Shown in pieces: positions 1,178 to 25,212 of a DNA stretch of 64,000 nt. The translations under genes and the position numbers were made by a program. How positions within the stretch are numbered: position 1 is the first letter of the stretch; each line of letters opens with the position of its first letter. Source of the stretch: Oxalobacteraceae bacterium AB_14 (GTDB lineage Bacteria > Pseudomonadota > Gammaproteobacteria > Burkholderiales > Burkholderiaceae_D); contig KB906724.1 in NCBI GenBank assembly GCA_000381565.1, positions 840,350-904,349 of the forward strand, given 5' to 3'. A model generated the notes under the pieces. It worked only from the letters and a program-made list of their open reading frames with translations, ran no database searches and had not been told where the DNA came from.

Positions 1178-1192
1178 AGTAGCGATACTACA
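1178..1192. promoter_or_regulatory. HexR-like operator upstream of the SusA-like gene
   Basis: AGTAGCGATACTACA matches the recurring motif TGTAGT-N3-ACTACA at 10 of 12 arm positions. It lies 26 bp before the minus-strand start codon at 1152, where it would overlap the promoter of that gene. The regulator is inferred, not shown. Confidence 0.5.
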
Positions 1193-1413
1193 GGCGCTTG
1201 TTATCGTGGTATGCCGGGCTTGCTGCCCGGTTTTCATAGAGAATACTCTCAAAGTCCCTGCGTATCAAACCATGGAATTTAGTCAAAATACAGGATGTGC
1301 ATCGATTTTTTATTCATATTGTTTTTTCAGCCAGGAATTCACGGCGAAGGGACCGAAATCCCACCGCGGCATGCAGCTTTGGTTTCAAAAACAAGTGGTT
1401 CTATCGCTAAATA

Positions 1414-1461
1414 TGTAGTTCTACTACAATCCTCGTGCCGCACTTCTGTAGCCGAAATACA
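1414..1461. promoter_or_regulatory. Paired HexR-like operators upstream of the TonB receptor
   Basis: The 539-base gap between the divergent SusA-like and receptor genes holds a perfect site, TGTAGT-TCT-ACTACA, at 1414-1428. A weaker copy (TGTAGC-CGA-AATACA) is at 1447-1461. The two start 33 bp apart, about three helical turns, so dimers could sit on the same face of the DNA. A third degenerate copy (TCTAGTTTTAGTACA, 1545-1559) overlaps the likely promoter. The rest of this gap shows no further gene. Confidence 0.6.
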
Positions 1462-1533
1462 ACGACAAGCGCGTATCCGCAGGGGGAAGTAGGCGCGTAG
1501 CCAGTTGTAAAGCGTAGGCGCAAAGAAGTTTCA

Positions 1534-1561
1534 TTGACATGGAATCTAGTTTTAGTACAAA
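1534..1561 (+). promoter_or_regulatory. Sigma-70 promoter candidate for the TonB receptor gene
   Basis: A perfect TTGACA (1534-1539) is followed after 16 bases by TACAAA (1556-1561). A degenerate HexR-like motif at 1545-1559 overlaps the spacer and -10. The leader to the start at 1692 would be about 125 bases. Confidence 0.5.
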
Positions 1562-1691
1562 ATTCTTCATAGGACGTCTTTTAGAACGTTGAATTTCCTT
1601 GGATCCCGTGTAGTTTGAGGCGCCCCGACGAATGCGGAGCGACTGATGTTGGCGGGAATTATGTTTTGTGTCGTGAGTGAGGGGACATTGA

Positions 1692-4562
1692 ATGAAAATT
1701 TTCGCGAATAAGCGTAGTCATGGTGCTGCGTTCCAACTGAATCCAGTCGCAGCTGGCTGCGCCGTATTCCTGTCGATGATGGCAAGCTCGGCTGTATATG
1801 CGCAAGAAGCGTCGCAAGCGGCCCCGGCGCAAGCCTCCGACGTGACGGCCGCCAAGGCCGACCCCAACGCACCGGTGGTGCCATCGGTGGTCGTAGCCGG
1901 TATCCGTCGCGGTATCGAAGCGGCCATCTCGATCAAAAAGAATTCCACCTCCATCGTCGAAGCCATCTCGTCGGAAGACATCGGCAAACTGCCGGACTCC
2001 AGCGTGGCTGAATCAATCGCCCGCCTGCCAGGCGTGACCGCCCAGCGCAGCCGCGGTTCGGGCAAGGCCGCCGACATCAGCGTGCGCGGTCTGGCGCCCA
2101 GCTTCAATGGCACCCTGGTCAACGGTCGCGAACAGGCATCGACCGGCAATGCCCGCAGCCCGGAGTTCGACCTCTTCCCTGCCGAACTGATCGGCAGTGC
2201 CATGATCTACAAGACCCCCGACGCGACCGTGATCGGCCAAGGCCTGGCTGCGACCATCGACCTGCACACCGTGCAGCCGCTGGACTTCGGCAAGCGCGTG
2301 CTGGCGGCCGGTGCGCGCACCGAGCGCAGCGGCGTGCGTTCCGGCTCGCCCGAAGGCGACGGTAAGCGCTACACCTTCAGCTATGTCGACCAGTTCTTCA
2401 ACCGCACCATCGGCGTGGCGCTGGGCGTGACCAGCTACAAGGAAACCGGCGGCGGCCAGCAGAAGTTTGAAGGCGGCGGCACCGAGATCTACGACGCCAA
2501 GACCGCGACCAACCCGAACGGCCTGAACGTCGTCGTGCCAAGCGGCTTCAAAGCCGATACCGAAACCTCGACCTCCAAGCGTGACGGCGTCTCCGCCACC
2601 CTGCAATACCGTCCAAGCAAGGAATTCAAAACCTCGGTCGACCTGTTCTACTCGGCCGGCACCCAGACCCTGAAGAAGACCGGCCTGGAAGGTTCGATCG
2701 GCGGTTCGTGGGGCGGCTATGACCCGGTCGGCACGCTGAGCAACGCCACCATCGCCGGCGGCGTGGCCACCAGCGGCACCTTCAGCGGCTTCAAGGGCGA
2801 TGTGCGCAACCACAAGGAATCGGCGGACGACAAGCTGACCTCGATCGGCTGGAACGCGCAGTTCAAGCGTGACGACTGGACCCTGACCAGCGATCTGTCG
2901 CACTCCAAAGCGACCAAGAATGCGTCGCGCTACGAAACCACGGCCGGCGTGGCCGGCAACACGCCCGCCGGCCAGATCGGTTCGATTTCGTGGACCGGCT
3001 TCGACGGCAAGAACCTGGCCGCCATGCACCTGACGTCGAGCTTTGACTATTCGAACCGTTCGCAGACCTTCCTGACCGACACCGACGGCTGGGGTGGTGG
3101 CGTGAACTCGCCGCAGGCCGGCTATGTCGCGCTGCCCAACGTCGATGACAAGATCGACGCGATCCGCCTGAGCGCCCGCCGCGAAATGGAATGGGGTCCG
3201 GTTTCGGCCGTCCAGTTCGGCGTCAATTACACCAAGCGCGACAAGAAGCGCTACGGCGACGAAGGCCGCCTGGTGGTCAAGGGTGGCAACGGCTACGCCA
3301 CCGCTACGGTTCCAGGCGCGGCCACCGCCACCGCCGGCACCACCGGCATTCCCATCGTCTCGTTCGACCCGGTAGGTACCCTGGGCCCGATCTACGATAT
3401 GGTGCGGTGGGTCGACGCCAGCACGCTGGCCAAGGATTGGTCGGTGTCGGAAAAGGTCACCACCGCCTACGCCATGGGTGAACTGGACGGCAAGCTGGCC
3501 GGCTTCGACTACCGCGGCAACTTCGGCGCGCAGCTGGTGCACACCAATCAGTCGACCACCGGCAACAAGGTTGACCTGCTGACCTGCACCGGCATCACGG
3601 CCGCCACCTGCCCATCGGCCGCCATCGCCGACGGCACTTCGTATAATGACATCCTGCCGAGCGCCAACGTGTCGTTCGACCTGGGGCGCGAACAGCAGCT
3701 GCGCTTCGGCCTGGCCAAAGTGCTGGCGCGCGCCAACCTGGACGATATGCGCGCCAGCTCGGCATTCGGCGTCAGCAAGGACAATACCGTGCCTATCCTG
3801 GTCGGCAGCGGCGGCAACGCCAAGCTGGAACCGTTCCGCGCCAAGGCCCTGGACGTGTCGTACGAGAAGTACTTCGGCAACAAGGGCTACTTCAGCGCCG
3901 CCGCGTTCTACAAGAAGCTCGACACGTACATTCTGCGCGCGCCCCGTGCGTTCGACTTCAAGGACCAGGTTACCGCCAGCACGCAACTGCCGCTGACCGG
4001 CCCATACCAGGGCTCGACGGTCGGCCTGCTGACCACGCCGACCAACGGCGACGGCGGCAATATCCACGGCTATGAGCTGTCGGTGAACATTCCGTTCTCG
4101 CTGGTCACGCCCTACCTGGACGGCTTCGGCGCCTCGGCCAACTTCTCGAACACCTCGAGCGGCATCGAGTTGCCGGTCATCGGTTTCGCGACCCAGGGCG
4201 TGGCCGGGGTCAGCATCCCGCTGCCTGGTCTGTCCAAGCGCGTCACCAACTTGCGCATGTACTACGAGAAAAATGGCTTCCAGGTCGCCTGGGCTGCCCG
4301 TCGCCGCTCCGATTTCCTCGGCGAGATCAGCGACTTCCAGGACAATGCCCAGCTGACCTTTGTCAAGGGCGAGACCATCATCGACCTGCAAGCGTCGTAT
4401 GAATTCTCGCAGAAGTACCTGAAAGGCCTGTCGGTCTACGTCCAGGCCAACAACTGGAACAACACGCCTTACCAAGAGTACAATGGCACCGATTCGACCG
4501 CCATTTCGTACAAGACCGTGTTTGGCCGTACCTACCAGTTTGGTCTGAGCTACAAGTTCTGA
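1692..4562 (+). CDS. TonB-dependent outer-membrane receptor (maltodextrin uptake)
   Basis: A 956-residue TonB-dependent receptor of the Xanthomonas/Caulobacter carbohydrate type, taking oligosaccharides across the outer membrane with TonB/ExbBD energy. A signal peptide ends at AVYAQ (~residue 38). A plug domain follows, with IVEAISSEDIGKLPDSSVAE, LPGVTAQR and DISVRGL, then the beta-barrel with the terminal strand YQFGLSYKF (aromatic last residue, as needed for BAM insertion). A GAGG ribosome site precedes the ATG. The neighbours (SusA-like, GH31, pullulanase, MalY-like permease) point to maltodextrins, as for Caulobacter MalA. The substrate is inferred from context only. A 46-residue Ala/Asp-rich stretch separates the signal peptide from the plug and may hold a divergent TonB box. 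Confidence 0.92.
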   Translation: MKIFANKRSHGAAFQLNPVAAGCAVFLSMMASSAVYAQEASQAAPAQASDVTAAKADPNAPVVPSVVVAGIRRGIEAAISIKKNSTSIVEAISSEDIGKLPDSSVAESIARLPGVTAQRSRGSGKAADISVRGLAPSFNGTLVNGREQASTGNARSPEFDLFPAELIGSAMIYKTPDATVIGQGLAATIDLHTVQPLDFGKRVLAAGARTERSGVRSGSPEGDGKRYTFSYVDQFFNRTIGVALGVTSYKETGGGQQKFEGGGTEIYDAKTATNPNGLNVVVPSGFKADTETSTSKRDGVSATLQYRPSKEFKTSVDLFYSAGTQTLKKTGLEGSIGGSWGGYDPVGTLSNATIAGGVATSGTFSGFKGDVRNHKESADDKLTSIGWNAQFKRDDWTLTSDLSHSKATKNASRYETTAGVAGNTPAGQIGSISWTGFDGKNLAAMHLTSSFDYSNRSQTFLTDTDGWGGGVNSPQAGYVALPNVDDKIDAIRLSARREMEWGPVSAVQFGVNYTKRDKKRYGDEGRLVVKGGNGYATATVPGAATATAGTTGIPIVSFDPVGTLGPIYDMVRWVDASTLAKDWSVSEKVTTAYAMGELDGKLAGFDYRGNFGAQLVHTNQSTTGNKVDLLTCTGITAATCPSAAIADGTSYNDILPSANVSFDLGREQQLRFGLAKVLARANLDDMRASSAFGVSKDNTVPILVGSGGNAKLEPFRAKALDVSYEKYFGNKGYFSAAAFYKKLDTYILRAPRAFDFKDQVTASTQLPLTGPYQGSTVGLLTTPTNGDGGNIHGYELSVNIPFSLVTPYLDGFGASANFSNTSSGIELPVIGFATQGVAGVSIPLPGLSKRVTNLRMYYEKNGFQVAWAARRRSDFLGEISDFQDNAQLTFVKGETIIDLQASYEFSQKYLKGLSVYVQANNWNNTPYQEYNGTDSTAISYKTVFGRTYQFGLSYKF

Positions 4563-4583
4563 TCGTCCGTAGTATCAGCTGAT

Positions 4584-4609: not shown

Positions 4610-4629
4610 TGGTTTCGGGAGTTCGATTT

Positions 4630-6141
4630 ATGCAGCAAGCAGCCATCAAGAACATCGTCATCGTCGGCGGCGGCACCGCCGGCTGGATGACCGCGGTGAC
4701 CCTGTCGACCGTCCTGCGCGGCCAGTACAACATCCGGCTGGTGGAGTCCGACGAGATCGGCATCGTCGGCGTCGGCGAGGCCACCATCCCGATGATCCAG
4801 CGCTTCAACCAGGTGGCCGGCATCGACGAAGCGGAATTCATGAAGGCCACCCAGGGCACCTACAAGCTGGGCATCGAATTCGTCAACTGGGGCAAGCTTG
4901 GCGAGCGCTACATCCACGGCTTCGGCATCCTCGGCCAGGACCTGTGGACCGCGCGCTTCGACCAGTACTGGCAGCGCCTGCGCGGCCTGGGCAAGGCGCG
5001 CGAGCTCGATGAATACTCGATCACGCGCATGGCCTGCCGCCACAACAAGTTCATGCCGCCGCGCCGCGACCTGACCAACTCGCCGCTGTCCGACATCGCC
5101 TACGCCTACCACTTCGACGCCAGCCTGTACGCGCGCTACCTGCGCACCGTCAGCGAGCAGCGCGGCGTGCGCCGCACCGAAGGCAAGGTCGCCCAGGTGT
5201 CGCAGCGCGCCGCCGACGGCCATGTCGACGCGGTGCTGATGGAGTCGGGCGAGCGCATCGAGGGCGATCTGTTCATCGACTGCTCCGGCTTCCGCGGCCT
5301 GTTGATCGAAGGCGCGCTGCAGACCGGTTACGAGGACTGGAACCACTGGCTGCCGTGCGACCGCGCGCTGGCCGTGCCGTGCGCATCGGCGCCGGTGCTC
5401 ACGCCCTACACCCGCTCCACCGCGCACAGCGCCGGCTGGCAGTGGCGCATTCCGCTGCAGCACCGCACCGGCAACGGCCATGTGTACAGCAGCGCCTTCA
5501 TGCAGGACGAAGAGGCGCAGCGCATCCTGCTGGCCAACCTCGATGGCAAGCCGCTGGCCGAGCCGCGCATGGTCAAGTTCCGCACCGGCATGCGCAAGCT
5601 GGGATGGAACAGGAACGTGGTGGCGATCGGCCTGTCGAGCGGCTTCCTGGAACCGCTGGAATCGACCAGCATCCACATGATCCAGTCGTCGATCGCGCGC
5701 CTGATCCAGTTTTTCCCGGACCGTGGCTTCAACCAGCTGCAGGTGGACGAGTACAACCGCCAGGCGCGCTTCGAATACGAGAGCATCCGCGACTTCGTGA
5801 TCCTGCACTACAAGCTTAATCAGCGCGACGATTCCGATTTCTGGCAGCAGTGCGCGGCGATGGCGGTGCCGGATTCGCTACAGCAGAAGATCGACATGTT
5901 CCGCGCGCGCGGCCGCGTGGTGCGCTTCAATAACGAGCTGTTCGCGGAAGCCGGCTGGGTGCAGGTGATGCATGGCCAGAACCTGAAGCCGGAAGGCTAC
6001 GATCCGTTGGTCGACCTGCTGCCGGTGGCGGACGCGGAAAAATTCCTGGAAAGCATACGCGACGTGATCGGACAGTGCGTGCAGCACATGCCCGGCCACG
6101 CCGAGTATATCGCGCAGCATTGCGCCGCGCCCGGGGGGTAG
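4630..6141 (+). CDS. Tryptophan-halogenase family flavoprotein 1
   Basis: FAD-dependent halogenase family (PF04820), 503 residues; members use reduced FAD, oxygen and halide to make HOCl/HOBr, passed to the substrate by an active-site Lys. Visible features: the FAD motif GGGTAGW near the N-terminus, GVGEATIP, the catalytic Lys at residue 79 in TQGTYKLGIEF (same number as PrnA Lys79), the hallmark WQWRIP, and LEPLESTSIH. The ATG at 4630 is chosen because GGGAG lies 9 bases upstream. Related halogenases of unknown natural substrate (BrvH of Brevundimonas, Xanthomonas enzymes) also sit beside TonB receptors; that context is recalled knowledge. The substrate here is unknown. The gene runs tail to tail with a homologue on the other strand, 3 bases between stops. 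Confidence 0.88.
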   Translation: MQQAAIKNIVIVGGGTAGWMTAVTLSTVLRGQYNIRLVESDEIGIVGVGEATIPMIQRFNQVAGIDEAEFMKATQGTYKLGIEFVNWGKLGERYIHGFGILGQDLWTARFDQYWQRLRGLGKARELDEYSITRMACRHNKFMPPRRDLTNSPLSDIAYAYHFDASLYARYLRTVSEQRGVRRTEGKVAQVSQRAADGHVDAVLMESGERIEGDLFIDCSGFRGLLIEGALQTGYEDWNHWLPCDRALAVPCASAPVLTPYTRSTAHSAGWQWRIPLQHRTGNGHVYSSAFMQDEEAQRILLANLDGKPLAEPRMVKFRTGMRKLGWNRNVVAIGLSSGFLEPLESTSIHMIQSSIARLIQFFPDRGFNQLQVDEYNRQARFEYESIRDFVILHYKLNQRDDSDFWQQCAAMAVPDSLQQKIDMFRARGRVVRFNNELFAEAGWVQVMHGQNLKPEGYDPLVDLLPVADAEKFLESIRDVIGQCVQHMPGHAEYIAQHCAAPGG

Positions 6142-6144
6142 GGT

Positions 6145-7656
6145 CTACATCTTCGGCGCCGCGCAGCACGAGGCGATGTATTCCTCGTGCGTCGGCATGT
6201 GCTCGGCGCAGCGCAGCACCACGTCCTTGACGTTGCCCAGGAAGGCGGCGATGTCCTCCGCCGAGCGCTGATCCACCAGCGGGTGATAACCCTTGGGGCG
6301 CAGGCCCTGGCCGTGCATCACCTGCAGCCAGCTGGTCTCGGTGAACAGTTCGTCGCTGGCGCGCACGATGCGGCCGTTGCTGCGGTAGAGGTCGATCCGG
6401 CGCTGCAGTGTGGCCGGTATCTCCATGTGGCGGCAGTAGTCCCAGAACGGCTTGCCTTCGCGCGCATTGAGCTTGTAGTGCAGGATCAGGAAGTCGCGGA
6501 TGGCCGCGTATTCGTTGTCGGTCGCTTCGTTGAAGGAATCGATGTCGGCCTGGTCGTAGCCCATGTGCGGGAACATCATCAGCAGCCGCGTGATACCGGT
6601 TTGCACCAGGTGGATGCTGGTCGACTCGAGCGGCTCCATGAAGCCGCCGGCCAGGCCGATGGCCACCACGTTCTTGTTCCAGGCGCGCTTGCGCTTGCCG
6701 GTGGTGAAGCGCAGGTGGCGCGGCTGCGCCAGCGGCTTGCCGTCCAGGTTATTCATCAGGATGGATTCGGCCTGCTCCGGCTCCATGAATTTGCTGCAGT
6801 AGACATGGCCGTTGCCGATGCGGTGCTGCAGCGGAATGCGCCACTGCCAGCCGGCGTCGTGCGCGGTGGAGCGGGTGTAGGGCAGCAGGGGGCTGACCGA
6901 TTCGCACGGCACCGCGATCGCGCGGTCGCACGGCAGCCAGTGCGACCAGTCTTCATAGCCGGTATTGAGCGCGCCTTCGATCAGCAGGCCGCGGAAGCCG
7001 GAGCAATCGACGAACAGGTCGGCTTCGATACGCTCGCCGTTCTCCATGACGATGGCCTGGACGAAGCCGTCGCCGGCACGCAGCACGGTTTCGACGATGC
7101 GGCCTTCGGTGCGCTGCACGCCGCGTCCTTCGCTCAGCCCGCGCAGGTACTTGGCGTAAAGCGCGGCATCGAAGTGAAAGGCGTGGGAGATGTCGGATAG
7201 CGGCGAGTCGCCGCTGTCGTTGGCGGCCCGCATGAATTTGTTCATGCGGGCGGCGACGGTGTTGATCGAGTAGTGCTCGACATCGGGCGCCTTGCCTTCC
7301 TGGTACAGCTTGAGCCAGTACTGGTAGAACTTGGCCAGCATCTGGTCGCGGCCGATCACGCCGAAGCCGTGGATGTACGACTCGCCCTGCCGGCTCCAAT
7401 CGACGAATTCGATACCGAGCTTGAAGGTGCCCTGGGTCTGGCGCAGGAACTCGTTTTCGTCCACGCCGATCAGCTGGTTGTAGCCGCGGATGACAGGAAT
7501 GGTCGCCTCGCCGACGCCGATGGTGGATATCTCGTCCGATTCCACCAGACGGATTTTGCAGCCGTTGGAAATCAGCGTCGACAGCGCGGCGGCTGTCATC
7601 CAACCCGCGGTGCCGCCGCCGACGATGACGACATTCTTGACCAGTCCCAGACTCAT
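6145..7656 (-). CDS. Tryptophan-halogenase family flavoprotein 2
   Basis: A second 503-residue member, clearly homologous along its whole length to the convergent gene. It has GGGTAGW, GVGEATIP, Lys79 in TQGTFKLGIEF, WQWRIPLQH, and MEPLESTSIH. All catalytic signatures are intact, so neither copy looks decayed. A GGAGAG ribosome site precedes the ATG at 7656. It follows the M2 peptidase gene on the same strand (107 bases) and could be the last gene of a GH31-peptidase-halogenase transcript. The inverted arrangement suggests duplication with inversion or recruitment of a paralogue; substrate unknown. Confidence 0.88.
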   Translation of the reverse strand: MSLGLVKNVVIVGGGTAGWMTAAALSTLISNGCKIRLVESDEISTIGVGEATIPVIRGYNQLIGVDENEFLRQTQGTFKLGIEFVDWSRQGESYIHGFGVIGRDQMLAKFYQYWLKLYQEGKAPDVEHYSINTVAARMNKFMRAANDSGDSPLSDISHAFHFDAALYAKYLRGLSEGRGVQRTEGRIVETVLRAGDGFVQAIVMENGERIEADLFVDCSGFRGLLIEGALNTGYEDWSHWLPCDRAIAVPCESVSPLLPYTRSTAHDAGWQWRIPLQHRIGNGHVYCSKFMEPEQAESILMNNLDGKPLAQPRHLRFTTGKRKRAWNKNVVAIGLAGGFMEPLESTSIHLVQTGITRLLMMFPHMGYDQADIDSFNEATDNEYAAIRDFLILHYKLNAREGKPFWDYCRHMEIPATLQRRIDLYRSNGRIVRASDELFTETSWLQVMHGQGLRPKGYHPLVDQRSAEDIAAFLGNVKDVVLRCAEHMPTHEEYIASCCAAPKM

Positions 7657-7763: not shown

Positions 7764-9599
7764 TTACTTTTTGTCGGCCGCGGCGAAGGCGGCGTTCTGC
7801 GTGTCGAGCCAGGTCTTGAGCGGCGCGAAGTAGTCGAGCAGCGCGCCGCCGTCGATCTTGTCCTCGCCCGAAATCGCCTTCAGCGCTTCCGGCCATGGCT
7901 TGCTCGCGCCCATCGCCAGCATCTGCTGCAGCTTGGCGCCGGCCTTGGCGTTGCCGTACACCGAGCAGCGGTGCAGCGGGCCGGTATAGCCGGCCTCGCG
8001 GCACAGCGCGCGGTGGAACTGGAACTGCAGCATATCGGCCAGGAAGTAGCGCGCATACGGCACGTCCGCCGCCACGTGGTACTTGGCGCCGGCGTCGAAG
8101 CCCGCGCCGCTGGCGTCGATGGCCGCCGGGCGCTTCATGCCCATGTACTGTTCGCGCAGCTGCCACCAGCTCTTGTCGTAGTCGGCCGGCTTGGTCTTGC
8201 CGGCGTAGACGTCCCAGCGCCACTTGTCCACCGAGTAGGCGAACGGCAGGATCGCGACCTTGCTCAGCGCGCGCTCCAGCAGCTGGCCGATGTCGGCGTC
8301 GGCGTCCGGCGCCTGGTCCATCAGGCCGACCTTCTGCAGATAGCTCGGCGTGATCGACAGCGCGACCGTGTCGCCGATGGCTTCATGGAAGCCGTCGTTG
8401 GCGCCATTGCGGAACAGGTAGGGCTGCTTGGTGTAGTTGAGGAAGTAGTAGACGTGACCCAGCTCGTGGTGGATCGTGGTGAAGTCCTCGGCCGTCGGCG
8501 TGATGCACATCTTGATGCGCACGTCGTCCTTCTCGTTCAGCGGCCAGGCCGAGGCGTGGCACACCACGTCGCGGTCGCGCGGCTTGGTCAGCAGCGAACG
8601 CTCCCAGAACGATTCCGGCAGCTTCTGCATGCCCAGCGAGGTGTAGAAACGCTCGGCGTATTGCGTCATCTGCCTGGCGTCGGTCTTGCGCTCTTCCAGC
8701 ACCTTGCCCAGGTCAAAGCTGCTGGCGCCGGTCGCCGGTTTCAGCAGCGGATACAGGTTGTTCCAGCTCTGGCTCCACATGTTGCCGAACAGGTGGGACG
8801 GGATAGGGCCGGTCAGCGGCACCACATCCGGGCCGTAGGTCTGGCGCAGCTTGTAGCGGGTGTAGGTGTGCAGCGCGTCATACAGCGGCTTGACCTGCTG
8901 CCACAGGCGCTCCATCTCGGCCGAGAAGGCTTCCGGCGGCATGTCGTACTGCGCGCGCCACATGGCGCCGGTATCGGCAAAGCCCATCTGCTTGGCGCCC
9001 TTGTTCGACAGCGCCACGTATTCGGTGTATTTCTGCTTGTAGGACGGCGATTGCGCGTGCCAGCCCAGCCACATTTCCTTCAGCTTGGCCTCGTCGCGGC
9101 TATTGGCCAGGACCTTTTCCATGTCGCCCAATGCCATGCAGGCGCCGGCCGTGCCGTCGGGCTTCTTCGGGCAGTACTTGGCTTTGCCATAGGCGCCGTT
9201 CATCGCCGCCTGCAATTGCGCGTATTGTTCGCGCTCCTTCGGATCGGCGAAGACCAGGGTCTGCTGCAGCAGCATCATCTTGCGGGCCGAATCGGCCGGC
9301 AGCTTCAAGCCGTTGAAACGGCGCGCCGCGATGGCCGCCTCGCCGGCCGCCGTCAGATAGCGTTCGGCGAAGAAGGAGGCGATGGCTTCCGTGTCGTCGG
9401 TGATGAAGTTGGAGCCGACCCAGGCGCCTCTGGCCTGTTCGTTGTTCAGCTTATTGAGGTGGGCTTCGGTGTCGGTCAGGAAGCGCTCGGCCTCTGCGAC
9501 GGTGGGTTTTTTTGCGGGGGCGGCCAGCACGGTAGTGCTGGCGGCTGTCATGGCGCTGAGCGCGAACAGCGTGCTGATGATTTTTTGTGACACTGGCAT
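7764..9599 (-). CDS. M2-family zinc peptidyl-dipeptidase (ACE-like), secreted
   Basis: A 611-residue metallopeptidase of the angiotensin-converting-enzyme family, expected to release dipeptides from peptide C-termini in the periplasm. The zinc motif HELGH is at residues 378-382 in [16 protein letters not shown], and the downstream zinc Glu lies in HEAIGD. The start is set at 9599 because it gives a signal peptide ([20 protein letters not shown], cut near VLAAPAKK). A longer frame begins 20 codons upstream but would bury the signal. The GGGAG next to this ATG is unusually close. It sits 70 bases after GH31, so it is probably co-transcribed. A peptidase in a glucan locus is odd; a POT transporter at 23.5-25.1 kb could be its partner. 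Confidence 0.9.
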
Positions 9600-9669
9600 C
9601 TCCCTATCTGCGTATATGGTCTTGTTGGCCGTCGAACCATGCGGTTCGATGGCCAGCAATGATACACGC

Positions 9670-12117
9670 TTACAGGGTGATGGCGACGCTCCGGCTGGCC
9701 TGGCTGCTGGCCGGCAGCGCGATGTTCAGCACTTTGGCCGCTTCGTCCCAGACGAAGATCACCGGCTTGCCGTCGACCCGCACCAGCGACGGGTGGGCCG
9801 TCACGTTGTGCACCTGCAGCGCGATGCTGCGCTCGGGACGCTGGTACTGCTTGCCCACTTCGGATGCGATGCGCAGCGACAGACTGCGGCCCTGCAGCTT
9901 GCTGGTGAAGTGCAGCAGTTCGTACTTGCCCTGTTCGTAGGCTTGCGCGGTGCTGCCGTCGTCGTCGTACAGCTTGCCTGCGCCGGCGCCGACCGAGGCG
10001 TCGTGGTAGTAGTGCAGGTCGATATGCTTGGTCGAATAGTCGCGCGTGGTCTGCACCACCTTGGCCATCGGGATGAAGGCGCCGGCGCGCACATAGACCG
10101 GCAGGTGGTCGGCGCTCAGCTTCACCGCTTCGGTGGCGCCGCCGGCGTGCTTTTCGCCGCTGTAGAAATCGAACCACGCGCTGCGGGCGGGGAAGTAGAC
10201 GTCGGCCGTGGTCGCGCCCTGCTTGAGCACCGGCGTGACCAGGAAGTCCTTGCCCCACAAATAGGTCGACGACATCGCGCGCACCTTGGCGTTGCCCGGC
10301 TCCTCGTACAGCATGGGGCGCATCAGCGGCAGGCCTTTCTGGTTGTTGTCGAAGCCCAGCGTGTAGTTGTAGGGCAGCAGGCGATAGCGCAGGCGGATCG
10401 CCTCGCGCGCCAGCGCCTTGGTGCGCTCTTCGCGGTAGACCGGCTCCGGCGCCACCTCGTCCTGCGCGTGCGGACGGAAGATCGGCTGGAACACGCCGTA
10501 CTGCAGCCAGCGCGTGTAGAGCTCATTGTCCAGCACCGGATTGGCGAAGCCGCCCAGGTCCGAGTGCATATAGCCCACGCCCTGCATCCCCATTTGCAGC
10601 GATATCTCGGGCTGCGCCTGCAAGCCGCCCCAGCCCCGGTTGACATCGCCGGACCAGGGAATGATGCCGTAGCGCTGCGTGCCCGAATAACCGGCGCGCA
10701 TCAGGATGAATGGACGCTCGGTCGGGAAGTCCTGCTGGTAGCCTTCCGCCACCAGCCGCGCCCATTGGTGGCCGTAGATGTTGTGCACCTGGTCGGCGCT
10801 GCCGGTGGCGTGGCGCATGGCGGCCGGATGCACTTCCGGTTCGCCCAGGTCGCCCCACACGCCGGTCACGCCCTGCTCGCGCAGGCCCTTGTAGATGTTC
10901 CAGAGCCAGTCCTTGCCCGGCTTGCCGAAGATGTCGATCAGCCCCGTGTGGCCGAAGTAGAAGTCGTAGGCCAGCGGCGCGCCGCTGGCGTCCGTGCCCA
11001 GCACCTTCTTGTCGACCGCCTCCTGCCACTTGCTCGATGTATCGAGAATAAACGGTTCGGTGATCACCACCGTCTGCACGCCTTTTTTCTGGAAGTCGGC
11101 GATCATGCCGGTGGCGTTGGGGAAGCTGTCCTTGTCCCAGGCCAGGTTGCCCATCGTGCCCTTGATCTCTTTGCCGAACCAGAACAGGTCGAACACGATG
11201 GCGTCGAGCGGGATGTCGTCGGCGATGAATTTGTTGACGGTGTCGCGCGCGATGGCTTCGTTGCGGTAGCCGAAGCGCATCGCGAAATTGCCGAAGGCCC
11301 AGCGCGGCGGCAGCGGTTGTTTGCCGGTCAGGCTGGTGTAGTTGCCCACCACGTCTTCCCAGCTGTCGCCGGCGATCACCTGGTAGGTCTTGCGGCCGCC
11401 GATGGTTTCGTAGGTCAGGCTGTCGTTGTTCTTGCTGTCGAAATCGAGATAGCCGGTTTGCGGATTGTCGAAGTGAAGCGCGTACATCTTCGACGACAGC
11501 GCGACCGGCATCGCATAGCCCATCTGTTCGGACTTGTCGTCGTAGCCGTAGTGCGCCTTGTTGTACAGCGTGAAGCGGTGGCCGCGGCGGTTCATGCCGA
11601 CCGCCCGTTCGCCTGCGCCGTACAGGGCTTCGTCCTTGTCGAGCGCGAACTCGATGCCTTCCAGCTGGCGCGCCTCGCCCTTGTTGATATCCTTGCTGCC
11701 GGTGGCCGGGTCGTCCTGGATCTTGACGTAGCCATGTTTTTCCGCGACCAGCCGCTTGCCCTTGTAGGCATACGAAATCTGGAACGGCGACTTGGTAATG
11801 GTGACGACGATGCCGGGTGTGGCATATTCGATGCTGTTGACCTTAGTGGTCAGCGTGGTGCGGACGGCGGCCGGCGCCAATACCACCGCGTGCGAGGCCG
11901 GGTCGATTTGCTCGCCGTTCGGCACGAAAGTGGTTTCAACGATGCCGGCGGAGTAGGGCTTGATGACATAGCGGCCGTCGCTGGTATGGACTTCCAGCTG
12001 GCCGCCGTTGCGGGTGGCGCTGTCGAATTTGCGGTCGGCGTTTTGCGCCTGGCCGGCCTGGCTGGCGACCAGCAGCGGCAATACGGCCGCAAGTTTGGCG
12101 ATGGAATTGCTTTTCAT
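9670..12117 (-). CDS. GH31 alpha-glucosidase or alpha-transglucosylase, secreted
   Basis: An 815-residue glycoside hydrolase family 31 enzyme acting on non-reducing ends of malto-oligosaccharides. The signal peptide ends at AGQAQNADRK. The N-terminal beta-sandwich is ~30-240 and the barrel ~245-600, followed by C-terminal beta domains. The nucleophile is Asp423 in GVWGDLGEPE and the acid/base Asp491 in WSGDVNRGW. The 68-residue spacing equals that of Cellvibrio CjAgd31B (Asp412/Asp480), an oligosaccharide 4-alpha-glucosyltransferase, and the GDLGEPE signature resembles that branch, so transglucosylation is possible. It is divergent from the MalY-like permease; a TGTAGTCAAA half-operator lies 42-56 bp upstream. 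First gene of a likely operon with the M2 peptidase. Confidence 0.9.
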   Translation of the reverse strand: MKSNSIAKLAAVLPLLVASQAGQAQNADRKFDSATRNGGQLEVHTSDGRYVIKPYSAGIVETTFVPNGEQIDPASHAVVLAPAAVRTTLTTKVNSIEYATPGIVVTITKSPFQISYAYKGKRLVAEKHGYVKIQDDPATGSKDINKGEARQLEGIEFALDKDEALYGAGERAVGMNRRGHRFTLYNKAHYGYDDKSEQMGYAMPVALSSKMYALHFDNPQTGYLDFDSKNNDSLTYETIGGRKTYQVIAGDSWEDVVGNYTSLTGKQPLPPRWAFGNFAMRFGYRNEAIARDTVNKFIADDIPLDAIVFDLFWFGKEIKGTMGNLAWDKDSFPNATGMIADFQKKGVQTVVITEPFILDTSSKWQEAVDKKVLGTDASGAPLAYDFYFGHTGLIDIFGKPGKDWLWNIYKGLREQGVTGVWGDLGEPEVHPAAMRHATGSADQVHNIYGHQWARLVAEGYQQDFPTERPFILMRAGYSGTQRYGIIPWSGDVNRGWGGLQAQPEISLQMGMQGVGYMHSDLGGFANPVLDNELYTRWLQYGVFQPIFRPHAQDEVAPEPVYREERTKALAREAIRLRYRLLPYNYTLGFDNNQKGLPLMRPMLYEEPGNAKVRAMSSTYLWGKDFLVTPVLKQGATTADVYFPARSAWFDFYSGEKHAGGATEAVKLSADHLPVYVRAGAFIPMAKVVQTTRDYSTKHIDLHYYHDASVGAGAGKLYDDDGSTAQAYEQGKYELLHFTSKLQGRSLSLRIASEVGKQYQRPERSIALQVHNVTAHPSLVRVDGKPVIFVWDEAAKVLNIALPASSQASRSVAITL

Positions 12118-12158
12118 GTACGTATGGTCTCAGAGGTTGTTATGATTTTGTTGTTTGG

Positions 12159-12173
12159 CTACATTTGACTACA
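12159..12173. promoter_or_regulatory. Half HexR-like site upstream of GH31
   Basis: On the minus strand this reads TGTAGT-CAA-ATGTAG: one intact arm and one poor arm. It shares TTTGACTAC with the stronger site before the POT transporter. Weak alone; listed because it sits at the expected distance from a gene of the same locus. Confidence 0.3.
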
Positions 12174-12228: not shown

Positions 12229-12263
12229 TTGACACGTACCAGGCTGCGTGTTATTTTGCTACA
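12229..12263 (+). promoter_or_regulatory. Promoter plus overlapping HexR-like site for the sugar permease gene
   Basis: TTGACA (12229-12234), a 17-base spacer and TATTTT (12252-12257) form a strong sigma-70 promoter. A 15-bp HexR-like motif TGTTATTTTGCTACA (12249-12263; 9 of 12 arm positions) covers the -10, the place expected for a repressor. The permease start is 28 bp further on. Confidence 0.55.
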
Positions 12264-19967: not shown

Positions 19968-22730
19968 TTACATCTTTTCTACGAATACCACGGCGCTGCG
20001 TGGTGGAATTGCAAACGTGCCGGAAGCGGCGTCGTACTTGGCTTCCAGGGCCACGCGTTTGTCCGCTGCGGCCATGTTGGTGTGGACCGGATGCAGCTGG
20101 TAGCGGCGGTTCTTTTCTGCGTCGACCGTCACGCGCTGCGCCACCTTGTCGACGTTGATCAGGTAGGTGATGGACTTGAAGTTGGCGCCCGCGTAGCCGG
20201 CGCCGTCCAGGTGGGCGACGATCACGGTCGGCACCTGGCCGCTGCCGGTGTTGTGGAAGCGCAGGCGCTGCTTGATGTCGGCGGCGGTGCGCAGGCGGAA
20301 CAGCGTGCTGCTGGAGCGGATCGCCAGCAGGTCGCGGAAGGCGTCGCGCGCGTAGGCGATGTCTTTCGGCGACGGCTTGATGGCGGCATCGCGCAGCAGC
20401 GGCTTGATCAAGTCGTAGTCCTTGCCGTTGTCTTCCGCGCGCGGGACGCCGGTGCCGTAGTAGTTGTCCTGGTAGCTCCAGTCGATGCGGTTGAACCAGT
20501 CGCCCGATTCGAAGCTGTTGCGGTCCAGCGATTTGGAACGCAGGATATCGAAGCCCGCATGGAAGTAGGCCACGCCCTGGCTGAAGGCGTTGATGGCGGC
20601 GCCCAGCATCTGCACCTGCGCGCGTTCGGCGCTGGTGGTGGCGCGCGGCAGCTTGAAGGCGTTGATGTCGTACAGCGTCTGGTTGTCGTGGTTCTCGACG
20701 TAGTTGACCACTTCGCCCGGCTCGCTGGCGTAGCCGGCCGGCTGGTTGCCACCGTAGACGAGGTCCTGCAGCTGCTGCGTCTTGCCGTCCGAGGTTTGCA
20801 GCGGGTAGCTGCGGATCGAACCGGCCAGGCCGACCTTGACCAGGTCCGACGCTTGCAGCAGGTCGCTGACGGGACGTGCGCCCGCCTGCGCGTTGGCGTC
20901 GTACACCAGGCCGTTGATGTAGCCTTGTTGCGTGATCATCTGCACGCCGCTGTCGCCGGCGCCGCCGCCGCGTACCGCGTCGCGCGCGCGGTCGCTGAAG
21001 GTGCCGATGCCGCTGCCGTTCAGCGACAGCTGCGAGGCCTGCACGAAGCGCGCGCCGTCGGCCACTTCGCCGAAGTTCCAGCCTTCGCCGATCAGGTTAA
21101 TGTGGCGGCCGGTGGCACGGTCGGCTCGGGCTTGCAGCTGCTCCATCGCGGCGCGCGGCTGGTGGCCCATCAGGTCGAAGCGGAACGAGTCGATCTTGTA
21201 CTGCACTGCCCATTGTTCGACCGAGTCGATCATCAGTTTGGCCATCATTAGGTTTTCGGTGGCGGTGTTGTCGCAGCAGGTGGAGCGTTCGATCGCGCCC
21301 TTGGCGTTCAGGCGGTGGTAGTAGCCGGGCACCACGCGGTCCAGCACGGACTTCTCGTTCTGGCCGGCGATGAAGGTGTGGTTGTACACCACGTCCATGC
21401 CGACGCGCAGGCCGGTCTTGTGCAGCGCCTGCACCATCTGGCGGAATTCGACGATGCGCTTGGCGCCGTCGGCCGGATCGGTGGCGTAGCTGCCTTCGGG
21501 CGCGTTGTAGTGGTAGGGGTCGTAGCCCCAGTTGTAGCAGTCGGTGGCCTGGGTCCTGGCGACCAGCGCTTGCTGTTCTTCGCTGTCCGGCGCCAGGCCG
21601 GCCGGGATGGCCGGCGTGACGCAGCCCTTTTCCGGCACGCTGCCGATGTCGTACACGGGCAGCAGGTGGATGTCGGTCATGCCCGCCTTGCTCAGCGCCG
21701 CCAGATGCTTCATGCCGTTGGAGCTGGCTTCGGTGAAGGCGGTGTACTTGCCGCGGTTGGCTGCGCTGACGGTGCTGTCGTTGATCGAGAAGTCGCGCAC
21801 ATGCAGCTCGTAGACCGTCATGTCGGATTGGGCGGCCACTTTTTTCGGAGCGGAGGTTTTGTCCCAGCCGGCGGGCTTCAGGTTGGCCGCGTTCAGGTCG
21901 GCAATGTAGCTGCGCTTGGAGTTGGTGGTCAGGCTGATCGAATAGGGATCGGTGACGAGGTTGCGCACCAGGCCCGCCGATGGCGCCACCACGTCCACCA
22001 GGTATTGGTAGTACTGGCCGGAGCGTTTGCCGTCAAGCTGCGCGGACCAGATGCCGGTGGCGTCGTCGCGCTGCATGGCGGTGATGGCGGAGGCTTTGCC
22101 GGAACCGCTGGCGTAGGTGCACAGCGCCACGCGCTGCGCGGTCGGCGCCCAAAGCTTGAAGCCGGTTTGTTTGCCGACACTGACGCCCAGGTCGCGCGCG
22201 TTGGCGGCGCTGGCATACAGGTCATCGAGCGCGCCGGCGATTTGCAGCGTGGTGGCGTCGCGCACGGTGCCGTCATCGGCCTCCTGCACCAGCATGACCT
22301 GCTGGGTCAGCACGCCGCCGAGGCGCGCGGCGTCCGCTGCTGCCAGCGTCAGCACCGCGCCGTTGCCGACGAATTTGAAACGCCGTGCGACTTCGGACCG
22401 CAAGCCGCCAGCAAGGCGCGTCAAAGCCAGCGAGCCATCCGCGCCGGACACGCGCGCGCCAGGCGTCGCATGCAGCGAGGCGGAAGCGGAGTAATACAGT
22501 TTGAAAGCGCCGGCGGAAGCGTCGGCGCCCGGCCACTTGACCAGTTGGCGATTGAGCCAGTAAGCCCGCGCATCGACAGCGACGGCGGGCTGCAGGACGG
22601 TGGCGAACGGCCCATCGCAAGCGGCCAGCGTCGCATCGGCGGCCGCAGCCGCCACACAGCTCAACGCCAGCGCGCCGCCCATAAAAACCCGGGTGACTCG
22701 TCGCCACGTCCCAAAATGCATACTGCCCAT
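19968..22730 (-). CDS. pulA: Pullulanase-type alpha-1,6-glucosidase, exported
   Basis: A 920-residue debranching enzyme that cleaves alpha-1,6 bonds in pullulan and branched dextrins. The signal peptide (~residues 1-32, ending AAAADAT) precedes an N-terminal pullulanase beta domain. A CBM48-like domain follows (~195-290, with GKQTGFKLWAPTAQRVALC), then the GH13 barrel: GMDVVYNHT (I), SFRFDLMGHQP (II, nucleophile Asp), IGEGWNFGEV (III, acid/base Glu), NYVENHDNQTLYD (IV). The C-terminus matches the DUF3372-type pullulanase tail. GGAGG lies 8 bases before the ATG at 22730; a second in-frame ATG three codons on is possible. Its promoter has a HexR-like site. Likely first gene of a pullulanase-lipoprotein-GH92 transcript. 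Confidence 0.93.
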   Translation of the reverse strand: MGSMHFGTWRRVTRVFMGGALALSCVAAAAADATLAACDGPFATVLQPAVAVDARAYWLNRQLVKWPGADASAGAFKLYYSASASLHATPGARVSGADGSLALTRLAGGLRSEVARRFKFVGNGAVLTLAAADAARLGGVLTQQVMLVQEADDGTVRDATTLQIAGALDDLYASAANARDLGVSVGKQTGFKLWAPTAQRVALCTYASGSGKASAITAMQRDDATGIWSAQLDGKRSGQYYQYLVDVVAPSAGLVRNLVTDPYSISLTTNSKRSYIADLNAANLKPAGWDKTSAPKKVAAQSDMTVYELHVRDFSINDSTVSAANRGKYTAFTEASSNGMKHLAALSKAGMTDIHLLPVYDIGSVPEKGCVTPAIPAGLAPDSEEQQALVARTQATDCYNWGYDPYHYNAPEGSYATDPADGAKRIVEFRQMVQALHKTGLRVGMDVVYNHTFIAGQNEKSVLDRVVPGYYHRLNAKGAIERSTCCDNTATENLMMAKLMIDSVEQWAVQYKIDSFRFDLMGHQPRAAMEQLQARADRATGRHINLIGEGWNFGEVADGARFVQASQLSLNGSGIGTFSDRARDAVRGGGAGDSGVQMITQQGYINGLVYDANAQAGARPVSDLLQASDLVKVGLAGSIRSYPLQTSDGKTQQLQDLVYGGNQPAGYASEPGEVVNYVENHDNQTLYDINAFKLPRATTSAERAQVQMLGAAINAFSQGVAYFHAGFDILRSKSLDRNSFESGDWFNRIDWSYQDNYYGTGVPRAEDNGKDYDLIKPLLRDAAIKPSPKDIAYARDAFRDLLAIRSSSTLFRLRTAADIKQRLRFHNTGSGQVPTVIVAHLDGAGYAGANFKSITYLINVDKVAQRVTVDAEKNRRYQLHPVHTNMAAADKRVALEAKYDAASGTFAIPPRSAVVFVEKM

Positions 22731-22744
22731 ATCGCCGCCTCCAA

Positions 22745-22772
22745 AACTATAGATTTAGGTAGTGCGGCTACA
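22745..22772 (-). promoter_or_regulatory. Promoter with overlapping HexR-like site for pullulanase
   Basis: On the minus strand TTGTAG, 16 bases and TATAGT form a likely -35/-10 pair. The -35 lies within the 15-bp motif GGTAGTGCGGCTACA (plus strand 22758-22772; 10 of 12 arm positions). The motif ends where the terminator of the upstream gene leaves its U-tract, so transcription and regulation are tightly packed. Confidence 0.55.
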
Positions 22773-22804: not shown

Positions 22805-22821
22805 TATGGTAATCCAAAATC

Positions 22822-22836
22822 TGTAGTTTTGGTACT
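22822..22836. promoter_or_regulatory. Second HexR-like site upstream of pullulanase
   Basis: TGTAGTTTTGGTACT keeps one perfect arm and matches 9 of 12 arm positions. It lies 64 bp from the better copy, between the ORF6N stop and its terminator, so it may be an auxiliary site or chance. Confidence 0.35.
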
Positions 22837-22851
22837 TTATGTGTTGGGGCG

Positions 22852-23421
22852 TTATTTTTCTTCCGGAACAATAAACCCTATCGGCCGTTTAGGCGCGGGC
22901 TCAGGTTTGATTGTCAGTTGGCGTAGGATTTCAAATATCTGTTTGATATGGGCGTGCGTGTATTGCCCAAGGTCGTCATTTTGAATAGAAAGCAAAGAGG
23001 TTCTGCTTTCTAGTTGGTCTAGTCGCAATGCGAGTTCTTTGCTCGATATAGAGGCCTCACGCATGCGAACGAACGTTCTCATGATTTCGATATTTACCGC
23101 AATTGCTGTGGCGCTGCCAAGTACTGATGAGAGCATGGCTACGCCTTGTTCGGTAAATGCATAGGGGGCGTAGCGTCGCCCTCCGCGACCGGTCTTTGAG
23201 GTCACAAATTGTGACCTCAAAGAGGTCCACTCAGAATCATCCAGCTGAAACATAAAATCTGATGGGAAGCGTTCCCTATTTCGTTTGATGGCTTGCATCA
23301 GAACTTTTGTGGGAACGTTATACAAGTGCGCCAAGTCGCTATCGAGCAATATTTTTTGCTCCCTCACGACTTGGATCTTCCCGGCAATTCCGGGCGTGTA
23401 TGTAGTTGGTTGGACGGTCAT
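22852..23421 (-). CDS. ORF6N-domain DNA-binding protein (phage antirepressor-like)
   Basis: A 189-residue protein with an N-terminal ORF6N/KilA-type domain (~residues 12-100). The domain contains QKILLDSDLAHLYNV, TKVLMQAIKRNRERFPSDF and YAFTEQGVAMLSSVL. A helical, probably coiled-coil C-terminal half follows. Such proteins are common in prophages and accessory islands, where they bind DNA. It is visibly richer in A/T than its neighbours and has its own terminator, so it looks like an insertion into the glucan locus between the pullulanase and the POT transporter. Function here unknown. Confidence 0.85.
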   Translation of the reverse strand: MTVQPTTYTPGIAGKIQVVREQKILLDSDLAHLYNVPTKVLMQAIKRNRERFPSDFMFQLDDSEWTSLRSQFVTSKTGRGGRRYAPYAFTEQGVAMLSSVLGSATAIAVNIEIMRTFVRMREASISSKELALRLDQLESRTSLLSIQNDDLGQYTHAHIKQIFEILRQLTIKPEPAPKRPIGFIVPEEK

Positions 23422-23457
23422 CCCTGTCGATCATTCTTTTTGAGATGACTGCCAAGC

Positions 23458-25056
23458 TTACGCGACCTTTGGAGCATCCATTCGATAATTGTCCACCATT
23501 TTGTAGCGTATCGCGTACAGCGCGAAGATCGCCGCGACCAGCAGCGCGAAGGCGGCGAAGAAGAACATCTGGAACGCGATCAGGCTGATCCCGCTGGTGG
23601 CGATGTGTGCGCTGACGGCGTCATTCTTCACGCCCGAATTGACGATCAGCACCCACAGGTTGCCGATGGTGACGGCCAGGTACCAGAAACTCAGGATGAT
23701 GCCTTTCATCGGCGCCGGCGCCTGGCTGTACGCGAATTCCAGCCCCGTCGCCGACACCAGTACCTCGCCCAAGGTCAGCAGCGCGTACGGCAGCAATTGC
23801 CACAGGATGGACACCTTGTCGCCGCCGTCCATGCGCAACTGGATCATGCCGATCACCACCCACGCGGCGGCCGACAGCGCGATGCCCATGCCCATGCGGC
23901 GCAGCGGTGTCGGCGTGACGCCGATGGCGCGCATGATAGGGAACAGCGCCAGGTTGTTGAACGGGATCAGCAGCATCACCAGGATAGGATTGACCGCCTG
24001 CATCTGCGCCGGCAGCAGCGTGAATTCCCAGCCGAAGATGTTCAGCAGCGGGCTATCCATCGAGTTGGCCTGCACGATCCAGGTCGACGCCTTCTGGTCG
24101 AACAGCGACCAGAACGGCGTCACCATCGCGAACACGATCAGGATGCGCAGCACCGAGCGCACGCCTTCCACCGCCTCGTCGCTATGCAGGCCGCGCGCGC
24201 GGTCCAGCTGCATCGACACGCCGATGCCGCCGAAGGCCAGCAGCAGCACCAGCGCCAGGCAGGCGGCGATGACGAAGCCCCATTGCGGCGCCATGCACAG
24301 CGACGCCACCGCGCCCAGCGCGCCGACGCCGGCCATCATCAGGCCGGGACGGCCCAGGAGATCTCCTGGGCGGCCGGGCTGCTTGCTCATCAGCGCGGTG
24401 CGGGCCACGCTGCTGAAGGAGTTCGGATTCGGCGCGGCCGGCGGCACGTGGATGTACTTGCGCTTGCCGAGCCAGAACACCAGCGTGGCGACCGCCATCA
24501 GGATGCCGGGTATGCCGAAGGCGACGGCCGGGCCGTAGTCGCGCAGGAACACCGGCATCAGCAGCGAGGCGAAGAAGGAGCCGAAGTTGATGATCCAGTA
24601 GAAGGCGTCGTACACCAGCTTGGCGCGGTTCTTGTTGGTCTGGTCGAACTGGTCGCCGACGAAGGCCGCCACCAGCGGCTTGATGCCGCCCGAGCCGAAG
24701 GCGATCAGGAACAGGCCGAAGTAGAAGCCCTTGAGGTTGTCCTCGAAGATCGCCAGGCAGGCATGGCCTGCCACGTAGATCAGGCTGAACCAGAACACCG
24801 TGTTGTATTTGCCGAACCAGCGGTCGGCCAGCCAGCCGCCCAGCAGCGGGAAGAAGTACACGCCGATGACGAAGGTGTGGAATACATGCTTGGCTTCGCT
24901 GGCGCGGTCGGCCAGCGGCACGAACAGCAGCAGCGTGCTGAGCAGGAACGGCGTGAGGATGTTGCGCATGCCGTAGAAGCTGAAGCGTTCGCAGCCTTCG
25001 TTGGCGATGATGTAAGGAATTTGCCGGGGCATCGGCCCGTTGCCGGTGTTGCTCAC
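23458..25056 (-). CDS. POT/PTR2-family proton:oligopeptide transporter
   Basis: A 532-residue inner-membrane transporter with about 14 hydrophobic segments. The N-terminal signature NEGCERFSFYGMR is the ExxERFxYYG proton-coupling motif of peptide POT carriers, followed by GGWLADRWFGKYNT and FGSGGIKPLVAAFVGDQF. The start is GTG at 25056 with AGGAGA 8 bases upstream. Family members import di- and tripeptides with protons. A near-perfect HexR-like site, 21-35 bp upstream, places it with the glucan genes, and the M2 dipeptidyl peptidase at 7.8-9.6 kb would supply its substrate. An unusual sugar substrate cannot be excluded from sequence alone. Confidence 0.88.
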   Translation of the reverse strand: MSNTGNGPMPRQIPYIIANEGCERFSFYGMRNILTPFLLSTLLLFVPLADRASEAKHVFHTFVIGVYFFPLLGGWLADRWFGKYNTVFWFSLIYVAGHACLAIFEDNLKGFYFGLFLIAFGSGGIKPLVAAFVGDQFDQTNKNRAKLVYDAFYWIINFGSFFASLLMPVFLRDYGPAVAFGIPGILMAVATLVFWLGKRKYIHVPPAAPNPNSFSSVARTALMSKQPGRPGDLLGRPGLMMAGVGALGAVASLCMAPQWGFVIAACLALVLLLAFGGIGVSMQLDRARGLHSDEAVEGVRSVLRILIVFAMVTPFWSLFDQKASTWIVQANSMDSPLLNIFGWEFTLLPAQMQAVNPILVMLLIPFNNLALFPIMRAIGVTPTPLRRMGMGIALSAAAWVVIGMIQLRMDGGDKVSILWQLLPYALLTLGEVLVSATGLEFAYSQAPAPMKGIILSFWYLAVTIGNLWVLIVNSGVKNDAVSAHIATSGISLIAFQMFFFAAFALLVAAIFALYAIRYKMVDNYRMDAPKVA

Positions 25057-25076
25057 TATTTTCTCTCCTGATTTTG

Positions 25077-25091
25077 TGTAGTTTGACTACT
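25077..25091. promoter_or_regulatory. HexR-like operator upstream of the POT transporter
   Basis: TGTAGT-TTG-ACTACT matches 11 of 12 arm positions of the shared motif. It lies 21-35 bp upstream of the minus-strand GTG, just downstream of an A/T-rich promoter-like stretch (minus-strand TTTACA then AAAATA-type -10). Confidence 0.6.
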
Positions 25092-25141
25092 ATTTTTATC
25101 CGACGATTTTTTGTAAATATTCGTAAGATATTGATTTTTAT

Positions 25142-25160
25142 GGATTAATTGTATTAATCC
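25142..25160. promoter_or_regulatory. Perfect 19-bp palindrome between POT transporter and GH13 genes
   Basis: GGATTAAT-TGT-ATTAATCC is a perfect 8-bp inverted repeat in the divergent intergenic region. It differs from the HexR-like motif and may bind a second regulator. No matching regulator gene is in view. Confidence 0.4.
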
Positions 25161-25197
25161 GCAAGTGCCTCATGGATTGAAAAAACCATATTCGTGA

Positions 25198-25212
25198 TGT
25201 ATATTGTCTACA
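25198..25212. promoter_or_regulatory. Degenerate HexR-like site before the cytoplasmic GH13 gene
   Basis: TGTATATTGTCTACA matches 9 of 12 arm positions and ends 36 bp before the chosen ATG. Weak, but in the expected position. Confidence 0.35.

Follow-up and report, generated by a model that had tools for sequence, protein, structure and literature searches.

A shared TGTAGT-N3-ACTACA operator set in the alpha-glucan locus of an Oxalobacteraceae bacterium and its probable link to a glucokinase-RpiR fusion

Introduction

A group of starch genes with the same palindrome in their promoters raises the question of which protein reads it. We analysed a stretch of 64,000 nt from Oxalobacteraceae bacterium AB_14, a bacterium of the Duganella type (assembly GCA_000381565.1, contig KB906724.1, positions 840,350-904,349 of the forward strand), referred to below as the window, whose positions serve as coordinates throughout. 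The window contains an alpha-glucan (starch) locus in which a 15-bp near-palindrome, TGTAGT-N3-ACTACA, recurs between the genes, and which also encodes a fusion of a glucokinase with an RpiR-type regulator (26969-28843, + strand; open frame from 26936; Pfam Glucokinase, HTH_6 and SIS). An initial annotation had proposed that HexR, a regulator of central carbon genes, was extended here to polysaccharide genes. Our analysis of the sequences suggests a different owner: the palindromes are conserved promoter elements of the alpha-glucan gene set, and it is probable that they are bound by the locus-encoded fusion, acting as a repressor that would be released by 2-keto-3-deoxy-6-phosphogluconate (KDPG) or a related sugar phosphate.

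Operator sites in the locus

With at most two mismatches allowed, the threshold used here unless stated otherwise, the motif was found at eight places in the window (1178, 1278, 1414, 1447, 1545, 12149, 22758 and 25077). All eight are intergenic and fall within 1178-25091, while 100 dinucleotide shuffles gave a mean of 0.34 matches and a maximum of 2. The eight matches lie in 2,662 bp of intergenic DNA in the locus, compared to a single match in 81,989 intergenic bp from 20 control stretches of 20 kb taken at fixed positions in this genome (Fisher P 8.5e-12). The shared near-palindrome that the initial annotation had seen across the locus was thereby confirmed, and the equal density elsewhere that it had named as counter-evidence was not found in this intergenic comparison. 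The 3,191 intergenic bp outside the locus, in the rest of the window, contained no match. In the whole genome (7.03 Mb) there were 111 places, or about one per 64 kb, and the reversed pattern was commoner (466 places); thus, the excess is local and intergenic rather than genome-wide. Since the reversed pattern differs in composition, permuted palindromes and the own-genome control stretches were used as controls as well.

Five of the sites lie between the SusA-like periplasmic GH13 gene (1-1152, - strand, extending past the window edge; Pfam Alpha-amylase and Cyc-maltodext_N) and the gene for the TonB-dependent receptor (1692-4562, + strand; Pfam Plug, NCBIfam TIGR01782). AGTAGCGATACTACA (1178-1192, two mismatches) lies 26 bp upstream of the GH13 start, with similar sites there in many relatives, and is followed by the weaker TTTAGTCAAAATACA (1278-1292, two mismatches), which recurs in some of them. 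Upstream of the receptor are the perfect operator TGTAGTTCTACTACA (1414-1428), TGTAGCCGAAATACA (1447-1461), which stands 33 bp past it, and TCTAGTTTTAGTACA (1545-1559), within the predicted receptor promoter. Between the GH31 alpha-glucosidase-type gene (9670-12117, - strand; Pfam) and the MFS sugar permease (12291-13619, + strand; Pfam MFS_1, with a weak NCBIfam GPH_sucrose match below cut-off; previously called MalY-like) are TGTTGTTTGGCTACA (12149-12163, two mismatches), with a similar site before malY in three related loci (L191, L200 and L201), and TGTTATTTTGCTACA (12249-12263, three mismatches), of which the identical 15 bases precede malY in L200. The pullulanase gene (19968-22730, - strand; Pfam) is preceded by GGTAGTGCGGCTACA (22758-22772, two mismatches) and the weaker TGTAGTTTTGGTACT (22822-22836, three mismatches); under a single label, pullulanase-side sites were found in 18 loci, with more loci under other labels, and pairs 63-66 bp apart occur in some relatives (L059, L067, L075). 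At the start of the POT-family transporter gene (23458-25056, - strand; Pfam PTR2) is TGTAGTTTGACTACT (25077-25091, one mismatch), and TGTATATTGTCTACA (25198-25212, three mismatches) precedes the GH13 gene (25249-26886, + strand; Pfam Alpha-amylase), a gene call without a predicted signal in the called frame and the first gene before the fusion.

Of the sites listed in the initial annotation, 1178, 1414, 1447, 22758 and 25077 were recovered at the default threshold and 12249, 22822 and 25198 at three mismatches. Its site at 12159 is a mere half-site (five mismatches by eye) overlapping 12149, and 1278, 1545 and 12149 had been missed. Helical phasing of the paired sites was considered and dropped, as the spacings of 33, 52, 62-64, 98, 100 and 121 bp fit no single rule.

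Promoter geometry

Three operators lie on or touch predicted -10 boxes. The predicted receptor promoter has a -35 box, TTGACA, at 1534 and a -10 box ending at 1563, the first bases of which are reached by operator 1545-1559. The predicted permease promoter consists of TTGACA at 12229 and TATTTT at 12252-12257, and its -10 box is covered by operator 12249-12263, in agreement with the placement given in the initial annotation. Likewise, the promoter predicted before the GH13 and glucokinase-RpiR genes (TTGAAA at 25177, TATATT at 25200-25205) has its -10 box covered by operator 25198-25212. As inferred from these consensus matches, such overlaps suggest repression. The same annotation had put 22758 on a pullulanase -35 box; no promoter-like match was found in the region upstream of that gene.

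Conservation among relatives

A total of 76 loci containing the fusion were fetched, mostly from Duganella, Rugamonas, Pseudoduganella and Massilia, with 80 of 196 relatives retained in the search. Among 60 permuted palindromes, TGTAGT ranked first in the intergenic DNA of these loci, with 115 matches (median 5, next best 18), or 76 matches (next best 3) when at most one mismatch was allowed; within called genes it ranked only tenth (23 matches, median 4). Because the loci are related, these counts are not independent, and an alignment footprint is the better test. A divergent POT/GH13 pair stands beside the fusion in 63 of the 76 loci, and its intergenic region has a site in 59 of them (57 with at most one mismatch) and the weak GH13-side site in 58. 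In an alignment of 58 such regions (6 of 64 regions of at least 450 bases were excluded), mean identity was 94% at the 25077 site and 91% at the 25198 site, compared to 50% in the remaining intergenic DNA, and the two best-conserved non-overlapping 15-mers start exactly at 25077 and 25198. The comparison with related genomes that the initial annotation had called for thus showed the sites to be conserved, strongly so for its weaker copy before the cytoplasmic GH13 gene.

The receptor promoter is similarly preserved. Among 35 such promoters, from relatives and paralogues and including that of the window, a perfect site was present in 25 and a site with at most one mismatch in 30, while pairs spaced 31-33 bp occurred in 26 and pairs spaced 127-135 bp, like 1414 and 1545, in 30. 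Two receptors 58-59% identical to that of the window had one two-mismatch site upstream (L118) or none (L119), and receptors only 40-45% identical had full arrays. Similarity of the receptor proteins therefore does not by itself account for the site array.

Sites elsewhere in the genome

The statement in the initial annotation that no such sites precede other genes holds within the window but fails genome-wide. Intergenic sites were found before genes for pyruvate kinase (pyk), a second glucokinase (glk2), a second MalY-type permease (malY2) and a secreted CBM20 amylase (amyCBM20), and at zwf and edd/pgi. A relaxed search, in which TGTAGC halves and one mismatch were allowed, gave 35 places in the genome; of the 34 that could be placed, 17 were in called genes and 17 intergenic, the latter being divided among the window locus (six), malY2 (two), the CBM20 amylase gene, pyk and glk2 (one each) and other places (six). 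In the two other genomes examined, sites recur before pyk and the amylase gene (G080) and before the amylase gene (G150). Among the six other intergenic places, all of them putative, are single copies upstream of glmS (by 23 bp; G000 C2:286301, L280) and of a PfkB-type kinase gene (by 106 bp; C1:2755242, L276), which may be further targets or chance matches.

The sites at edd, pgi and zwf are of a distinct, asymmetric kind. The edd/pgi intergenic region carries TGTAGTAAAATTTC towards edd and GGTAAMTTCACTAC towards pgi, each in 25 of 25 genomes, and zwf of this genome carries TGTAAATTTACTACA. These sites combine one TGTAGT half with one A/T-rich half, as opposed to the better glucan sites, which have TGTAGY-like halves on both sides.

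Candidate regulators

Three RpiR-type HTH_6 proteins were found in a search of the genome: the fusion, a 284-aa protein encoded beside zwf and near pgi and edd-eda, and a third, only distantly related protein (23-25% identity to the other two). The fusion belongs to the RpiR/MurR family, with Pfam HTH_6 and SIS domains both above cut-off. It matches NCBIfam PRK14101 (bifunctional transcriptional regulator/glucokinase) over its full length and in the same domain order, although its score of 837.9 bits is below the cut-off of 920. Against the NCBIfam HexR model NF008451 (cut-off 296 bits), the fusion scored 219.8 and the zwf-linked protein 265.6, both below cut-off; despite its score, the latter is the natural HexR of this genome. 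The fusion lies in the alpha-glucan locus, without the zwf/edd linkage typical of HexR, and in its RpiR half the identity amounts to 39.9% with RccR, 38.6% with the HexR of the same genome and 35.0% with that of E. coli. The fusion is thus better regarded as a third branch of the HexR/RccR group.

The glucan motif is the same as the published 15-bp consensus of RccR, exemplified by TGTAGTTTTACTACT and TGTAGTAAAACTACA, and KDPG lowers the affinity of RccR for this 15-bp form (PMC5489143; this and the other papers cited were available as excerpts). The sites are thus clustered, promoter-located palindromes of the type bound by HexR/RccR-like proteins, as the initial annotation had recognized. 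Judged by sequence, an RpiR-type protein is by far the best candidate class, and a regulator of this type almost surely binds the glucan operators. The fusion would most likely be their owner, being encoded in the locus and co-occurring with it. Two neighboring genes were considered as regulators and set aside: that for a MerR/TipAS protein (28936-29682) was labelled in just one (L036) of the ten loci with gene lists inspected, and that for a PadR protein (29861-30361) precedes an MFS gene, with no connection to the sites seen.

Co-occurrence was observed in 27 genomes searched with the fusion, of which 24 had a match to the TonB receptor and three had HexR only. A full fusion (84-100% identity) was present in 24 of the 24 receptor-bearing genomes. 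In the other three (G172, G067 and G052), HexR was present, the full fusion and the receptor match were absent, and near-perfect sites numbered 3, 1 and 4, respectively. Site density was also compared across 101 of 145 family genomes, after removal of 31 without a HexR-like match and 13 in which even the best one reached no more than about 42% identity. A count of at least two HexR-like matches was taken to stand for the fusion, since nearly all second matches, among the matches listed, were in open frames longer than 600 aa. The median number of sites per Mb was 0.43 with one HexR-like match (n = 43), 1.12 with two (n = 44) and 1.39 with three (n = 14). The difference between one and more matches was significant (Mann-Whitney P 1.4e-11; 6e-4 over 24 uniform genera), and the same trend was seen within the mixed genera g1, g29 and g44.

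We compared 84 fusions, that of the window and 83 from the fetched loci, at eight residues that contact KDPG in RccR (PMC10810197). H148, R152, H164 and S183 were conserved in 84 of 84, S185 in 80 and S139 in 78. In zwf-linked HexR proteins, position 185 is R in 30 of 30 and position 164 is H in only 4 of 30, so that the pocket of the fusion is nearer to that of RccR at these two positions. KDPG is the predicted inducer of the fusion. The glucokinase half contains NDFTA and EGGH, which we take to be its catalytic motifs, in 84 of 84 fusions.

A feedback loop may be envisaged on this basis. The fusion would bind the TGTAGT-N3-ACTACA operators and repress the glucan genes. Glucose from starch breakdown would be converted by the fused glucokinase to glucose 6-phosphate and by the Entner-Doudoroff pathway to KDPG, which would free the operators. 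The standalone, zwf-adjacent HexR likely retains the asymmetric edd/pgi/zwf sites; it may share some targets with the fusion, and the two may overlap at pyk and glk2. That a single polypeptide unites the glucose-committing enzyme with a KDPG-sensing switch gating a TonB-dependent starch regulon, its operator class split from that of HexR by paralogue divergence, is a tentative proposal that we regard as possible rather than probable.

Alternative explanations

Several observations weigh against the fusion as the controlling protein. In 82 of 84 fusions L takes the place of S188, a KDPG contact, and opposite K270 the alignment has R in 80, within a poorly alignable tail. The recognition helix is nearly identical in HexR and the fusion, so that cross-binding is expected. 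Roughly 105 bp separate the strongest receptor site (1414) from the predicted -35 box downstream of it, a position that does not by itself suggest repression. Furthermore, the co-occurrence involves linked genes in 27 genomes picked by receptor or HexR content, and the trend in site counts fails in the mixed genera g43, g45 and g54. Finally, the fusion-less G172 keeps two two-mismatch sites at its glk2 promoter, from which it follows that HexR may bind such sites.

The last of these points is what a plain extension of HexR would predict, with the standalone protein bound to glucan and core sites alike and the fusion mainly an enzyme or a minor co-regulator. Such an extension would also account for the TGTAGT half-site common to the edd and pgi sites, the similar recognition helix and the presence of central-carbon targets, pyk and glk2, among the sites. 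We nevertheless consider it distinctly unlikely, given the few near-perfect sites of the three HexR-bearing genomes that have neither fusion nor receptor and the distinct subtype of the core sites, constant in every genome compared. The proposal of the initial annotation, as worded, therefore does not stand: a separate HexR-type protein adjoins zwf, and the edd and pgi sites are of another subtype. It was partly supported, being right on the sites and close on the regulator, since the fusion is encoded in the locus and occurs with it. A compromise in which the operators serve both RpiR proteins, with local input from the fusion and global input from HexR, would fit the same half-site, similar helix and mixed targets; we find this somewhat doubtful, as the distinct operator subtypes and the differing KDPG-pocket residues point to divided roles.

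Maltose systems are often controlled by LacI proteins, and a regulator of this type encoded elsewhere might bind the sites. This is very improbable, considering that the motif matches a published RpiR consensus and that no LacI helix-turn-helix was detected by Pfam in 36 window frames, some of them antisense, the rest of the genome not having been searched for LacI. If the fusion does bind the sites, it could activate rather than repress, as might be suggested by the perfect receptor site well upstream of the predicted promoter. The operators at 1545, 12249 and 25198, on or touching -10 boxes, make activation unlikely.

Relation to known systems

RccR of Pseudomonas resembles the system proposed here in its TGTAGT/ACTACA half-sites, N3 spacing, paired sites and similar KDPG-contact residues. 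Unlike the fusion, it has no enzyme attached, and its targets are pyruvate, glyoxylate-shunt and gluconeogenesis genes (PMC5489143, PMC10810197). RccR also has a second, N16-spaced site type, located at the genes of the glyoxylate shunt and gluconeogenesis, of which there is no excess in this genome (36 places with at most two mismatches to the 28-bp form, versus 137 for the reversed control). HexR of proteobacteria shares with the fusion the RpiR family, a sugar-phosphate signal and a pseudo-palindromic 15-bp site (TGTAATTAAATTACA in Vibrio), but here it has a gene of its own and a site subtype that is asymmetric. The HexR regulon has zwf, edd and pgi as core targets and is known in expanded forms, and in Vibrio HexR affects growth on chitin and glgX; a TonB-dependent starch locus is not named as a target in the available excerpts (PMC5343134, PMC11906056). 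An alpha-1,4-glucan locus of Opacimonas also holds hexR, glk, edd and zwf, with no operators given in the excerpt (PMC12844025). Our literature search found no paper on the regulon of a glucokinase-RpiR fusion, and a limited search turned up no published betaproteobacterial HexR motif.

As in other starch polysaccharide-utilization loci, genes for a TonB receptor, GH13 and GH31 enzymes, a pullulanase and a permease are found together; what sets this locus apart is its proposed regulator, a fusion of enzyme and repressor that would read central metabolism. Typically, a polysaccharide locus is controlled by a regulator that senses the oligosaccharide. In this case the evidence points to the flux of central metabolism as the controlling input, read by a protein joined to the enzyme with which glucose use begins. 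If this is correct, sugar breakdown would directly control polysaccharide import, and a fusion named by annotation pipelines, its regulon not found in print, would acquire a function and defined operators, distinct from those at the HexR core genes. It would also offer a testable case of target division by RpiR paralogues whose recognition helices are almost alike.

Fusions in other genomes and other genes of the locus

In G100 (genus g44), all three near-perfect sites are on the contig of the fusion: one between two permease genes, another upstream of what by eye resemble sugar ABC transporter genes, and the third upstream of a TonB receptor gene. In another genus (L196, G169), a 54% identical relative of the fusion is encoded in the neighborhood of HexR, zwf, pgi and edd; near-perfect sites there (11778, 11926 and 17803) precede one porin-like and one sugar-transporter-like gene (named by eye). 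This arrangement perhaps represents an older role in glucose uptake. Some Massilia loci (L086/L100, L104, L108 and L322) encode a glucokinase-RpiR fusion twice, downstream of GH13b and again downstream of the cytoplasmic GH13 gene, suggesting local duplication of the regulator.

POT-family transporters are usually peptide symporters. The one encoded here (23458-25056), under a starch operator, may carry maltooligosaccharides. The locus also includes two convergent genes for tryptophan-halogenase-type flavoproteins (4630-6141 and 6145-7656), with a relative (63%) adjoining a TonB receptor in another genus (L192), a gene for an ACE-like M2 peptidase (7764-9659), and an ORF6N-domain gene between those for the POT transporter and the pullulanase (22852-23421).

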